6,079 nucleotides of DNA from Candidatus Omnitrophota bacterium (GTDB taxonomy: Bacteria > Omnitrophota > Koll11 > VGKN01): assembly GCA_016867055.1 (NCBI GenBank), contig VGKN01000104.1, forward strand, positions 1 through 6,079, in the 5' to 3' direction. Below, one piece after another: positions 1,166 through 5,856 of this stretch. The notes under the pieces were generated by a model. The model was not told the DNA's origin. It did no database searches and was given only the letters and a program-made list of their open reading frames with translations. The position numbers and the translations under genes were made by a program. Position 1 is the first letter of the stretch. Every line of letters begins with the position of its first letter.

Positions 1166-1193
1166 TTGATGGTTCGACTTCACTCACCATCAA
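1166..1193. repeat. Small hairpin element, copy 1 (TTGATGGT arms)
   Basis: Eight-base arms TTGATGGT (1166-1173) and ACCATCAA (1186-1193) are perfectly complementary around the 12-nt loop TCGACTTCACTC. The 22 bases at 1169-1190 recur in inverted orientation at 5825-5846 with one mismatch. The element lies 27 nt after the CDF stop codon. Its right arm shares bases 1190-1193 with the left arm of the next hairpin (terminator candidate), so both cannot form completely at once. Confidence 0.75.
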
Positions 1194-1224
1194 TCCTGAA
1201 CGCAGGTCGAAGGATTGATTTTTT
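1190..1224 (+). terminator. Candidate intrinsic terminator of the CDF gene
   Basis: TCAATCCT (1190-1197) pairs perfectly with AGGATTGA (1211-1218) across a 13-nt loop, and six T residues follow immediately (1219-1224), then GTGTTTTT. The position, about 50 nt after the CDF stop codon, suits transcription termination. The stem is short, not very GC-rich and has a long loop, so efficiency is uncertain. Confidence 0.5.
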
Positions 1225-1233
1225 GTGTTTTTC

Positions 1234-1260
1234 TCCTGCTTCGCCTTTGGCTTCGCAGGA
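1234..1260. repeat. Small hairpin, TCCTGC arms
   Basis: TCCTGC (1234-1239) pairs with GCAGGA (1255-1260). Inside the 15-nt loop a further GCC/GGC pair (1243-1245 with 1249-1251) can close a TTT triloop. The loop begins TTCGCCT and ends CTTC, loosely like the loops of the other small hairpins in this window, so it may be a diverged relative. Confidence 0.55.
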
Positions 1261-1291
1261 TTTCGCTAGATTTTGAATTTTAAGGTGCTCA

Positions 1292-1340
1292 TTTGGGCAA
1301 AAAGGCAAATTTTGCCCGCACCCAAAATTTGCCTTTTTGC
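1292..1340. repeat. Perfect 18-bp inverted repeat with alternative pairings
   Basis: GCAAAAAGGCAAATTTTG (1297-1314) is exactly complementary to 1323-1340, with an 8-nt loop CCCGCACC. The left arm can also fold locally: GGGCAAAA (1295-1302) pairs with TTTTGCCC (1310-1317). A third pairing joins TTTGGG (1292-1297) to CCCAAA (1321-1326). No T-run follows on either side, so it does not look like an intrinsic terminator. Confidence 0.8.
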
Positions 1341-1343
1341 TGG

Positions 1344-1366
1344 CTCTCAAGCGTTATGCGTGAGAG
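1344..1366. repeat. Short inverted repeat, CTCTCA arms
   Basis: CTCTCA (1344-1349) pairs with TGAGAG (1361-1366) around an 11-nt loop. The right arm can alternatively pair imperfectly with GTCTC at 1374-1378. It is part of the palindrome-rich stretch and has no assigned role. Confidence 0.4.
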
Positions 1367-1373
1367 GCTTTGC

Positions 1374-1416
1374 GTCTCGCCGTCCAGAGAAGTTTTTGGC
1401 ATATCTTAGGCGAGAC
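1374..1416. repeat. Inverted repeat, GTCTCGCC arms
   Basis: GTCTCGCC (1374-1381) is complementary to GGCGAGAC (1409-1416) across 27 nt. The neighbouring CGTCC (1381-1385) and GGACG (1420-1424) are also complementary, giving a competing stem. Confidence 0.45.
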
Positions 1417-1479
1417 AGCGGACGAACTTTTCTTATAAACAAATTGTTTTACTTGTAAAAACTTTTTGGTGTGAGGACG

Positions 1480-1548
1480 TTGTGGCTGGCGGATGCCCGG
1501 TGCGGAGCCTCCTGAGCGGAGCGAAGGACACCCATCCGCCAGCCACAA
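1480..1548. repeat. Long GC-rich hairpin, 16-bp perfect outer stem
   Basis: TTGTGGCTGGCGGATG (1480-1495) is exactly complementary to 1533-1548. The stem continues, after a CCC bulge at 1496-1498, with GGTG (1499-1502) pairing with CACC (1529-1532). The interior holds CTGAGCGGAGCGAAGGA, similar in style to the GAGCGAAG core of the small hairpin at 5824-5847. No integrase-type core sites are convincing at its edges, and no T-run follows. Confidence 0.75.
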
Positions 1549-1608
1549 GCAAAGCCGAACCCGCAATAAAATTAGCAAGAAGTGAACGGCCAAGTGAACG
1601 CCGAAGGA

Positions 1609-1662
1609 GCCCTTGCCCCAGCAAGGGCGACTGGGGCGCGGGAGATGTGGGAGTCGCCCCAG
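1609..1662. repeat. Overlapping inverted repeats with mutually exclusive stems
   Basis: GCCCTTGC (1609-1616) pairs with GCAAGGGC (1621-1628) around a CCCA loop, and CTGGGGCG (1631-1638) pairs with CGCCCCAG (1655-1662). A competing stem joins GGGCGACT (1625-1632) to AGTCGCCC (1652-1659) and would break both. CCCCAG at 1616-1621 can also pair with CTGGGG at 1631-1636. The cluster could be a switching structure or just layered repeat insertions. Confidence 0.6.
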
Positions 1663-4580: not shown

Positions 4581-4848
4581 AAAAAGAGTTCAGATGCTTT
4601 ATTTGGGTAGGGTTCAAGGAGTAGGTTTTCGTTTTACCGTAGAGGCTATAGCCCAGGAACTTGGCGTTGAGGGATATGTAAAAAATTTAAGAGATGGCAG
4701 GGTTGAGCTTGTAGCAGAGGCAGATGAAAAAACTCTCCATCAATTTCTTAAAAGAACAGACGATAGAATGAGATATTATATCTCGAACAAAGAGATAGAA
4801 TATTCAAAGGCTACAGGTGAATTTAGAGGATTTGAGATAAGATTTTAA
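4558..4848 (+). CDS. acyP: Acylphosphatase
   Basis: This small cytoplasmic enzyme hydrolyses carboxyl-phosphate bonds such as acetyl phosphate. The 96-residue length is typical. The N-terminal signature GRVQGVGFR (17-25) supplies the phosphate-binding loop with catalytic Arg25. GYVKNLRDGRVEL (39-51) supplies catalytic Asn43. The Gly usually found shortly after the second signature is Ala here, a minor departure. I chose the ATG at 4558 because it follows AAGGA (4551-4555) and leaves a normal N-terminus, although the 2-nt spacing is short. An in-frame GTG at 4522 would add twelve unsupported residues. The start lies inside the end of rmuC, so translational coupling is likely. The role in this neighbourhood is not evident, and acylphosphatases are generally of unclear physiological purpose in bacteria. 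Confidence 0.94.
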   Translation: MSDQRVNKKRVQMLYLGRVQGVGFRFTVEAIAQELGVEGYVKNLRDGRVELVAEADEKTLHQFLKRTDDRMRYYISNKEIEYSKATGEFRGFEIRF

Positions 4849-4857
4849 TGACTTACA

Positions 4858-4884
4858 ATTTACGTTCACTATCGTTCCGTAAAT
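4858..4884. repeat. Small hairpin element, copy 2 (ATTTACG arms)
   Basis: ATTTACG (4858-4864) pairs perfectly with CGTAAAT (4878-4884) around the 13-nt loop TTCACTATCGTTC. The loop read on the other strand closely matches the loop at 5642-5653, though the arms are unrelated. It starts 10 nt after the acyP stop and ends 13 nt before the phosphoesterase ATG. Confidence 0.75.
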
Positions 4885-4897
4885 CGTGTGCTCACTG

Positions 4898-5623
4898 ATG
4901 CGCTATGGAATTCTATCCGATATTCATTCTAACCTTGAAGCATATGAAGCGGTTATAGATACGCTTAAGAAAGAAAATCCCGATAAGATTGTAGTAGTTG
5001 GTGATATAGTAGGCTATGGTGCAGACCCAAAGGAATGTATAAGACTGACAAGGTTTTTGACAGATAATATAACCTGTGGGAATCACGACTGGGCAGCGGT
5101 AGGGCTTATGAATATAAAATGGTTCAACTATAATGCAAGAAGGGCGGTCCAGTGGACTAAGGATATCCTCAATGGGAGCGAAGAAGAGTTTTTAAAAAAA
5201 CTTAATCTGATATTTGAAGATGAAAATATTATAGCGGTACATGGAAGTTTAGATAATCCCCAAGATTTTAATTATATATTTTATATTGAGGATGCAATAA
5301 AGACATTCTCAAAAATGGATAAGAGACCCTGCTTCATAGGTCATTCTCATTCACCTGTATTTTTTATGAGAGACAAAGAAAGGATAGATGTAATTTTTGA
5401 TGAGGCAATTAGATTAGAAGAAGGTAAGCAATATATTATAAATGTGGGAAGCGTTGGTCAGCCAAGGGATGGGGATAACAGAGCTGCCTGCGCAGTTTAT
5501 GATGTCCGAGAGCAATTGATTACGATAAAGAGGGTTGAATATAACATAAGGGAAACTCAAGAAAAAATTTTAAATGCGGGCTTACCTGAAATTTTAGCCT
5601 ACAGATTATCGGAGGGAAGATAA
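4898..5623 (+). CDS. Calcineurin-like metallophosphoesterase (YfcE/MJ0936-like)
   Basis: The 241-residue protein carries all the metal-ligand motifs of the calcineurin-like phosphoesterase superfamily in order: DIH (8-10), GDIVGYG (35-41), GNHD (61-64), VHGS (114-117) and GHSH (148-151). NVGSVGQPRDGD (182-193) is typical of the small bacterial and archaeal phosphodiesterase group (COG0639/COG0622-like). These enzymes bind two divalent metals and cleave phosphomono- or diesters; the natural substrate cannot be read from the sequence. The start is set at the ATG at 4898 because MRYGILSDIHSN is the usual family N-terminus. An in-frame GTG at 4886 would add four residues. Neither start has a Shine-Dalgarno, and the place where one would be is close to a small hairpin (4858-4884). 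The gene is 49 nt after acyP and is probably co-transcribed with it. No signal peptide is present, so it should be cytoplasmic. Confidence 0.92.
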   Translation: MRYGILSDIHSNLEAYEAVIDTLKKENPDKIVVVGDIVGYGADPKECIRLTRFLTDNITCGNHDWAAVGLMNIKWFNYNARRAVQWTKDILNGSEEEFLKKLNLIFEDENIIAVHGSLDNPQDFNYIFYIEDAIKTFSKMDKRPCFIGHSHSPVFFMRDKERIDVIFDEAIRLEEGKQYIINVGSVGQPRDGDNRAACAVYDVREQLITIKRVEYNIRETQEKILNAGLPEILAYRLSEGR

Positions 5624-5629
5624 ATGAAG

Positions 5630-5665
5630 ACACAACTTATGGAACGAAGTGAACATAAGTTGTGT
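5630..5665. repeat. Small hairpin element, copy 3 (ACACAACTTATG arms)
   Basis: ACACAACTTATG (5630-5641) pairs perfectly with CATAAGTTGTGT (5654-5665) around the 12-nt loop GAACGAAGTGAA. Allowing a 2-nt bulge (GT in the right arm), AGAC at the outer left also pairs with GTCT. It begins 6 nt after the phosphoesterase stop codon. No T-run follows the stem. Confidence 0.8.
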
Positions 5666-5669
5666 GTCT

Positions 5670-5719
5670 GAATTTACCCCCCCTGCTTTCTTGCGAAAGC
5701 AAGAAGGGGGGTCCAATTC
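5670..5719. repeat. Long hairpin with GAAA loop and C/G tracts
   Basis: TTCTTGC (5688-5694) and GCAAGAA (5699-5705) enclose a GAAA tetraloop. After a one-sided TGCT bulge (5684-5687) the stem continues with CCCCCC (5678-5683) against GGGGGG (5706-5711). GAATT (5670-5674) with AATTC (5715-5719) can close the base. No T-run follows, so a terminator is not indicated. Confidence 0.75.
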
Positions 5720-5738
5720 ACCCCGCACCACGAGGAAA

Positions 5739-5758
5739 CCCCGCCTGTCAAGGCGGGG
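5739..5758. repeat. Compact GC hairpin, CCCCGCCT arms
   Basis: CCCCGCCT (5739-5746) pairs perfectly with AGGCGGGG (5751-5758) around a 4-nt GTCA loop. It is very stable for its size. The sequence after it is AGGAATGAGG, without a T-run. Confidence 0.75.
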
Positions 5759-5797
5759 AGGAATGAGGATGTTATCCCGAAGGGTTCTTCCCCGAAG

Positions 5798-5856
5798 CCA
5801 CGCCTGTAACTCAACAGGCTCGGTATGGTGAGCGAAGTCGAACCATAAAGGCGTGG
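5798..5856. repeat. Compound inverted repeat, CCACGCCT arms, enclosing two hairpins
   Basis: CCACGCCT (5798-5805) pairs with AGGCGTGG (5849-5856). CCCC (5790-5793) and GGGG (5860-5863) can add an outer segment. The interior includes the small hairpin at 5824-5847, and the alternative stem CCTGT (5803-5807) with ACAGG (5814-5818), which competes with the outer arm. Confidence 0.65.
5824..5847. repeat. Small hairpin element, copy 4 (TATGGT arms)
   Basis: TATGGT (5824-5829) pairs with ACCATA (5842-5847) around the 12-nt loop GAGCGAAGTCGA. Bases 5825-5846 match the inverse of 1169-1190 at 21 of 22 positions. The loop matches that of the hairpin at 5630-5665 at 9 of 12 positions. Confidence 0.75.

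Follow-up and report, generated by a model that had tools for sequence, protein, structure and literature searches.

Two dispersed families of REP-like hairpins with constant loops and paired arm differences in Omnitrophota

A stretch of 6,079 nucleotides from a Candidatus Omnitrophota bacterium (contig VGKN01000104.1, positions 1 to 6,079, forward strand; hereafter the window) contains small hairpins belonging to two dispersed and widespread families that resemble repetitive extragenic palindromic (REP) elements, and not to a single loop type set on unrelated arms. Across copies, the arms of these hairpins differed in a pattern of paired changes. The elements are probably kept by selection on the folded single-strand hairpin, with arms that need only be complementary.

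Four hairpins with a similar loop had been described in a sequence-only reading of the window, and all four were located with perfect arms, at 1166-1193 (8 bp), 4858-4884 (7 bp), 5630-5665 (12 bp) and 5824-5847 (6 bp). As described, all were intergenic, and three began 27, 9 and 6 nt past stop codons. The claim of unrelated arms around one shared loop was rejected, as it pooled two families that were masked by the pooled consensus GARYGAAGTSRA; the loops differed by family, and the arms of one family followed a single scheme. Family A had the loop GAGC-N2-4-GTCGA and arms ending mostly in GGT, CCT or CCC, and its members in the window were at 1166 and 5824, both with the core arm GGT, and at 1189, with CCT. 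The hairpin at 1166-1193 (minus strand; arms TTGATGGT/ACCATCAA, loop GAGTGAAGTCGA at 1174-1185) and that at 5824-5847 (plus strand; TATGGT-GAGCGAAGTCGA-ACCATA) had in common the arm ATGGT, which had been noticed before, and the loop GAG[T/C]GAAGTCGA. The member at 1189-1219 (plus strand; ATCAATCCT-GAACGCAGGTCGA-AGGATTGAT) was a fifth hairpin, inverted relative to the one at 1166 and overlapping it via ATCAA (1189-1193). Family B had the loop GAACGNAGTGAA on related AT-rich arms, and its members in the window were at 4858-4884 (minus strand; ATTTACG-GAACGATAGTGAA-CGTAAAT, with arms of 10 bp if one G-T pair is included) and 5630-5665 (plus strand; ACACAACTTATG-GAACGAAGTGAA-CATAAGTTGTGT). The arm scheme read ACGATTTACG with the G-T pair at 4858 and ACACAACTTATG at 5630, and two family B copies in the nearest genome found for comparison (G001, isolate DeMMO3_15; 65% identity in the metallophosphoesterase) carried TAAACTTACA and ACAATTTATG.

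Reversed patterns were the control throughout the motif counts. Pairs of family A occurred in 111 of the 384 Omnitrophota genomes, with a single match to the control tabulated (figures for these pairs apply among the matches listed). Across the genome of G001 the loop was in excess, with 42 sites of GARYGAAGTSRA against 1 reversed-pattern match (2 to 7 against 0 to 6 in nine other genomes). With flanks included, the loop clearly outnumbered the control in G001 (41 to 0), G028 (22 to 5), G030 (16 to 1) and G038 (8 to 0), and GAGCGAAGTCGA was present in 20 of 39 genomes (G001 and relatives). Among the listed sites the family A loop sat on many different complementary arms; in G010 it stood behind TGTC at all three listed sites, on the arms ATGCC, ACCCT and ATTCC. 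In G028, loci L157-L172 carried many copies of the loop, set on TTC/GAA arms (ATATTCTTC..GAAGAATAT). The loop also occurred in some other phyla and on Sphingobium plasmids. In a Planctomycetota genome (G050, L029), the flanked loop likewise clearly outnumbered the control, with 346 matches and 87 of the reversed pattern.

The closing triplets of the 39 GAGCGAAGTCGA sites of G001 were GGT/ACC (33), CCT/AGG (5) and AGT/ACC (1). The G001 sites grouped into few longer repeats, several of them consisting of an outer stem around two hairpins, and arms were therefore conserved within subfamilies, as in ordinary REPs, yet they differed by paired changes across copies. A proposed contrast with REPs that conserve their stems fails because the arms in G001 were few and repeated and published REPs also have alternative complementary stem residues. 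Palindromes of about 20-60 bp in many copies (G001, Sphingobium plasmid), with repeated arms and flanks, agree with the general description of REPs; in a rough test of the extragenic share, 41 of 113 family A sites were inside open frames of at least 100 codons.

The family B pattern WTTAYGGAACGAAGTGAACRTAAW (at most 3 mismatches) was found in 126 of the 384 Omnitrophota genomes (reversed control 5). In the 150 matches listed, the outer pair was C-G in 68, T-A in 65, G-C in 3 and A-T in 2, and the fifth pair was C-G in 76, T-A in 65 and G-C in 2. The two variable pairs together were Watson-Crick in 281 of 300 cells, compared with a mean of 140 and a maximum of 168 in 2000 shufflings of the arms pooled over genomes. 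With identical strings merged (83 distinct), 149 of 166 cells were Watson-Crick (shuffled mean 76, maximum 94). Family B thus shows compensatory difference around a constant loop.

On Sphingobium plasmids the family A loop was part of the unit CCGTTCG-arm-GAGCYTGTCGA-arm, with arms CCCT or GGCT, which was found at 23, 20 and 12 places on three plasmids (23 on a 1 Mb plasmid; reversed control 0). Sites of GAGC-N2-4-GTCGA had arms of at least 3 bp in 29 of 78 cases on one of these plasmids (0 of 40 reversed-pattern sites) and in 25 of 77 on a second (0 of 41); at least two of the 29 armed sites look like chance sites in coding sequence. The earlier observation that loop and complementarity are kept while arms differ was therefore far above chance, both here (29 of 78 against 0 of 40) and in family B. 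Three intergenic regions aligned across nine plasmids differed in units gained or lost. A REP pair also lay where the alignment of TYG73 to TYG74 ends (L246:28200-28400 and orthologs).

Inverted partners almost always carried different arms. Closing triplets differed in all 41 inverted neighbours within 130 bp in the downloaded DNA, one of them being an A/B pair; copies among the 41 are not independent. Close convergent pairs on Sphingobium plasmids joined CCCT with GGCT in 15 of 15 and 24 of 24 cases, as judged from coordinates (nine of ten plasmids, many pairs orthologous). For the Omnitrophota pairs listed (113 of 115 distinct places; two nested places of G293 were excluded), the four closing bases were the same in 8 of 113 (20.4 expected), and the 5-nt inner arms in 1 of 112 (11.3 expected; none of 5000 shuffles was that low). 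After removal of repeated inner sequences, the same three bases were found in 14 of 88 pairs (21.5 expected), the same four in 5 of 88 (13.6 expected) and the same five in 1 of 87 (7.0 expected; p 0.007). The arms CCCT/AGGG and GGCT/AGCC, like CCT and GGT, differed by swapped C-G pairs, which left each hairpin perfect and broke the pairing between halves. Because the partners have different arms, each hairpin can fold on itself; such arms, often a two-pair swap (CC.T and GG.T), would favour two separate hairpins over one long hairpin. Why paired REPs often carry different stems is a published question ("no obvious explanation" in the available part of PMC3733652), and the finding of the different-arm rule with the same loop in both Omnitrophota and Sphingobium makes it testable.

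Loop positions were themselves constrained. Among the family A-shaped loops whose arms were at least 5 bp (230 in all), positions 4 and 8 were C-G in 179 and positions 3 and 10 were G-C in 180, and base -1 was a T or a C in 206. The family B-shaped loops, 33 in number, had C-G at positions 4 and 8 in 28, and at positions 3 and 9 A-T in 26 and G-C in 2; both sets of counts include loci fetched twice. As general background, d(GCGAAGC) is stable, and sheared G-A pairs follow a PyGAPu rule. The loop positions and the GNA-type apices fit a short inner stem resting on a GA/GA step, in which the two GA steps would form stacked sheared G-A pairs, topped by a C-GNA-G triloop, and the conserved part of the element would then be a structured cap.

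Folds in single-stranded DNA were more stable than those of dinucleotide shuffles, with z at -2.5 for 1160-1225 (plus strand), -1.9 for 4850-4890 (minus strand), -5.6 for 5626-5668 (plus strand) and -2.6 for 5796-5858 (plus strand). The best fold of 1160-1225 formed the second hairpin in part only, and that of 4850-4890 paired two bases inside the loop. An outer stem formed by 5798-5805 (plus strand; CCACGCCT) and 5849-5856 (plus strand; AGGCGTGG) encloses the hairpin at 5824, in a layout that resembles the composite repeats of G001.

Selection on a folded hairpin would account for these patterns as follows. A protein reading the loop would recognise the folded hairpin; arms would need only complementarity, so that copies and lineages would come to differ by paired changes. 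The loop and arm pattern is as expected from selection for a stem that presents the loop, which the sequence-only reading had offered as one of two explanations. Units have been gained or lost: they vary from strain to strain, and one type is found as an in-frame insertion in genes. The elements are presumably mobile.

Several observations weigh against this account. Among 21 genomes, there were several in which the loop did not clearly outnumber the reversed pattern (G052 28 to 18, G054 24 to 19, G008 2 to 5), and homology of the loop between phyla is suggested by likeness of sequence. Copied or inherited pairs in the pooled arm shuffling are not independent. Stepwise compensatory change was not seen between the Sphingobium plasmids TYG74 and MM7A (17 aligned sites), and one left arm of TYG74 was GGCT opposite AGGG, which is the type of its partner, with pairing lost. 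The Sphingobium plasmids also had one homotypic pair, at a distance of 125 bp, and one divergent pair of TCCT with TCCT. Three closing bases were alike in 18 of the 113 Omnitrophota pairs listed (30.1 expected), one listed pair had identical 5-nt arms, and the listing shows inner arms only (in 30 fetched pairs the first core was at least 3 bp in 20 and the second in 25). Sheared pairing in the loop is a prediction from sequence. The best fold of 5796-5858 consisted of the outer stem and other inner pairs, and left out the hairpin at 5824. Finally, of 59 Y1_Tnp loci (63 matches in 16 genomes), none had hairpins at its ends, and the expected link to a TnpA-REP (Y1) transposase was not borne out. 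These loci came as two sets, 30 (34 matches) from 8 genomes and 29 (29 matches) from 8 more, searched with arm thresholds of 3 and 4 bp, and some of them end at contig edges. No hairpin copy was near the three Y1 genes of G001; in L105 a hairpin was about 1.2 kb from the matched Y1 domain. A family A hairpin was also found inside the 5' coding part of an Edwardsbacteria Y1 transposase gene (L237:1485-1496).

The folded strand on which selection would act is probably DNA, because the loops showed no bias to the coding strand. In tandem gene contexts, with genes called as open frames of at least 100 codons, the loop was on the coding strand in 28 family A sites and on the opposite strand in 24, and in 7 and 14 family B sites, respectively (other contexts accounted for 61 of the 113 family A and 7 of the 28 family B sites). 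This argues against a strand-specific RNA signal. A role of the hairpins in transcripts, whether as 3' stabilisers, as terminators or as stems bound by proteins, with selection for whatever stem presents the loop, is quite improbable, in spite of the position of three of the four just past stop codons, of the TTTTTT that follows the arm of 1189-1219 (plus strand), and of the location of REPs mostly between convergent or co-directional genes, according to the available part of PMC3733652. The strand count that speaks against such a role is from rough gene calls and excludes the 41 of 113 A sites inside open frames. In addition, T-G and C-A had similarly low counts in family B (4 and 3; 3 and 2), where RNA would favour G-U, and a terminator scan found 3 sites (4.3 expected), none on a family member and none at 1219. 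The T-run after 1219 leaves a terminator role possible for the hairpin at 1189-1219.

Comparison of TYG74 with MM7A also bears on whether complementarity is kept by mutation, through template switching between arms or gene conversion, without selection. Of the 29 sites of TYG74, 17 could be aligned (the 12 without a spanning alignment were left out): 10 kept their arms, 1 had an arm with pairing broken, 2 resemble chance sites in coding sequence, and 4, in two of the five pairs spanned, had whole arm types exchanged. Such exchange of both arm types, and the GGCT arm opposite AGGG, which looks as if patched from the partner type, are what mutational upkeep would produce; that patch, however, breaks pairing, and upkeep alone leaves the conserved loop, the pyrimidine at -1 and the differing arms of partners unexplained. 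As the source of the complementarity it is very unlikely.

A class of composite units calls for separate treatment. Loops 11-15 nt apart shared their middle in the arrangement X-a-loop'-a'-X'-b-loop-b'-X, to which 1166-1219 of the window belongs: X is TTGAT at 1166-1170 and again at 1215-1219, and X' is ATCAA at 1189-1193 (all plus strand), common to both hairpins and complementary to both copies of X. From 34 composite pairs found, 7 that lacked one or both cores were left out of a permutation, and both arms were at least 7 bp (G-T allowed) in 19 of the remaining 27, whereas 2000 permutations of the flanks gave 1.0 on average and never more than 5. X was TTGAT on both sides in the window and in L384, L390 and L394, and TTGAT with TTGAC in L400, on core arms that differed. 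Ten TTGAT/ATCAA composite loci were searched with four window proteins and gave zero matches, and there was therefore no sign of orthologous sites. Elsewhere, X took three different forms in G390, two of three were alike in G073 and in G312, and 5 of 6 were of GGC/GCC type in G238.

Filled and empty sites of a composite were found in uvrC. The composite of G406 was an in-frame insertion of 51 nt, giving exactly 17 extra residues; in-frame insertion into protein genes is also the habit of Rickettsia palindromic elements. In G406 and G238 the 51-nt unit came after CTGCCG and brought X' (CGGCA and CGGCG, respectively) and a second TGCCG. In an alignment of UvrC (13 of 120 homologs listed) the same site was filled also in P0124, whose residues match locus L404 of G238, and in P0123; it was empty in P0142, which is similar to P0123, and in seven others, and P0127 and P0140 had nine and two extra residues. 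At the nucleotide level 16 of 30 uvrC loci were readable (14 did not match the anchor and were excluded), of which 2 were filled (one being the query's own), 1 had another longer stretch and 13 were of short length. TGCCG, the X of the filled sites, was present in 8 of the 13 readable empty sites and absent from 5. Since 8 of 13 empty sites hold TGCCG, and X' and the second TGCCG come with the 51 nt, one copy of X probably preceded the insertion, and the complementary arm was probably either fitted to that copy or copied from it; the TGCCG match could arise by chance from Leu-Pro codons. The filled alleles may be independent insertions, or one insertion with losses. Around the composite of L359, homologs were too distant for an empty-site comparison.

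Arms that are guided or copied would be an alternative for these units. The composite would insert beside a host X, with X' guiding it to the target, or with X' and the second X copied from the target, and insertion, not selection, would be what makes the outer arms complementary. This is possible, if somewhat unlikely. It is favoured by the excess of composites with long arms over permuted flanks, by the TGCCG of empty uvrC sites and the arrival of X' and a second TGCCG with the unit, by TTGAT on both sides at four loci with differing core arms and no flank match to four window genes, and by the choice of IS200/IS605 cleavage sites by guides 5' of palindromes (available part of PMC8266576). 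Against it, guided or copied arms would be confined to the composite class, in which one or both cores are missing from 7 of 34 pairs; TGCCG belongs to normal Leu-Pro codons and is missing from 5 of the 13 empty sites; X is mixed within genomes, a poor fit both to a fixed guide and to free copying; a single old insertion may underlie the uvrC alleles; and none of the 59 Y1 loci is linked. The earlier proposal that adjacent sequence is copied into an inverted arm is accordingly dropped for single hairpins and family B, and is retained as a candidate for the composite class alone (1166-1219), where X stands on both flanks and inverted mid-unit and 8 of 13 readable uvrC empty sites hold X. A combined view, that the composite is a mobile unit with arms made at insertion (X' as guide or as target copy) and that selection keeps the arms of partners different for two separate hairpins, is unlikely. 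If it were true, each composite insertion would end with host sequence as a hairpin arm. The composite and the filled and empty uvrC sites offer a defined unit and target for studying the spread of such repeats.

Genes in the window encoded a cation efflux transporter, a RED-rich repetitive protein, RmuC, an acylphosphatase, a metallophosphoesterase and the start of an NAD+-dependent DNA ligase. The proteins closest to the metallophosphoesterase, its own entry aside, were at most 69% identical, and the closest named organisms were Omnitrophota or Omnitrophica; genomes of relatives were found through the alignment of this protein, and RmuC gave none when genome contigs were searched. The repetitive protein (1996-3372; predicted, 458 residues) was highly rich in RED/RDRRED, had a signal-like start and had no Pfam match. 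A perfect inverted repeat of 18 bp with an 8-nt loop was located at 1297-1340, in the region after the cation transporter gene, and a long imperfect hairpin with a C7/G6 tract (5669-5720) directly followed the hairpin at 5630. An Rfam scan of the window gave one match only, HgcC at 5626-5778 (30.9 bits, below the gathering threshold of 50), which is a lead only; this stretch spans the hairpin at 5630 and the next hairpin.

Motif letters searched as text in the literature gave no papers or unrelated papers only (figures were outside the scope of the search), and none of six terms was found in the main text of PMC12306157 (RepRanger). What is new here is the family of loops, the rule of different arms seen in two distant groups, and the X-X'-X composite, for which uvrC provides both filled and empty sites. 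Rickettsia palindromic elements, which are named in the available part of PMC3733652, are similar in their in-frame insertion into protein genes; the likeness is by description only, and the unit here has 51 nt and its own loop motif.

REPIN and RAYT (TnpAREP) systems, in the available parts of PMC3116915 and PMC8266576, are similar in their inverted doublets and compensatory hairpin changes, in that some REPs have perfect stems and loop bases important for cleavage, and in a guide-like motif 5' of the hairpin. Relative to the guide arrangement of IS200/IS605, X' of the composite lies 5' of the second hairpin and would pair with X on the 3' side of that hairpin. Unlike these systems, the hairpins of the window had no GTAG and the 59 Y1 loci had no hairpins at their ends, and the arms of partners differed here rather than matching in one long hairpin, as they do in REPINs.

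The closest known systems are the CGTC-tagged REPs of Di Nocera et al. 2013 (PMC3733652), as described in the available part of that paper. Both are short, dispersed, mostly intergenic palindromes with alternative complementary stem residues, both form inverted dimers that often have different stems, and both have no linked transposase; CGTC-tagged REPs also occur inside repair genes (uvrA, uvrB). Their stems start with AT, as family A arms often do (ATGGT, ATCCT, ATCCC), and the TGTC before the three listed sites of G010 is a tag of the CGTC-REP type. They differ in that none of the five hairpins of the window had CGTC, TGTC or CCTC before the stem, and in that CGTC-tagged REPs have a stem of 8-9 bp and a loop of 4-5 nt, compared with a loop of 12-13 nt in the window unless the inner pairs are counted as stem. 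For the preference for heterodimers among these REPs, Di Nocera et al. 2013 gave "no obvious explanation" and suggested protection from SbcCD-type clearance. The X-X'-X composite is not described for CGTC-tagged REPs in the available part of PMC3733652, and it bears on the question of how such REPs without a linked transposase spread.

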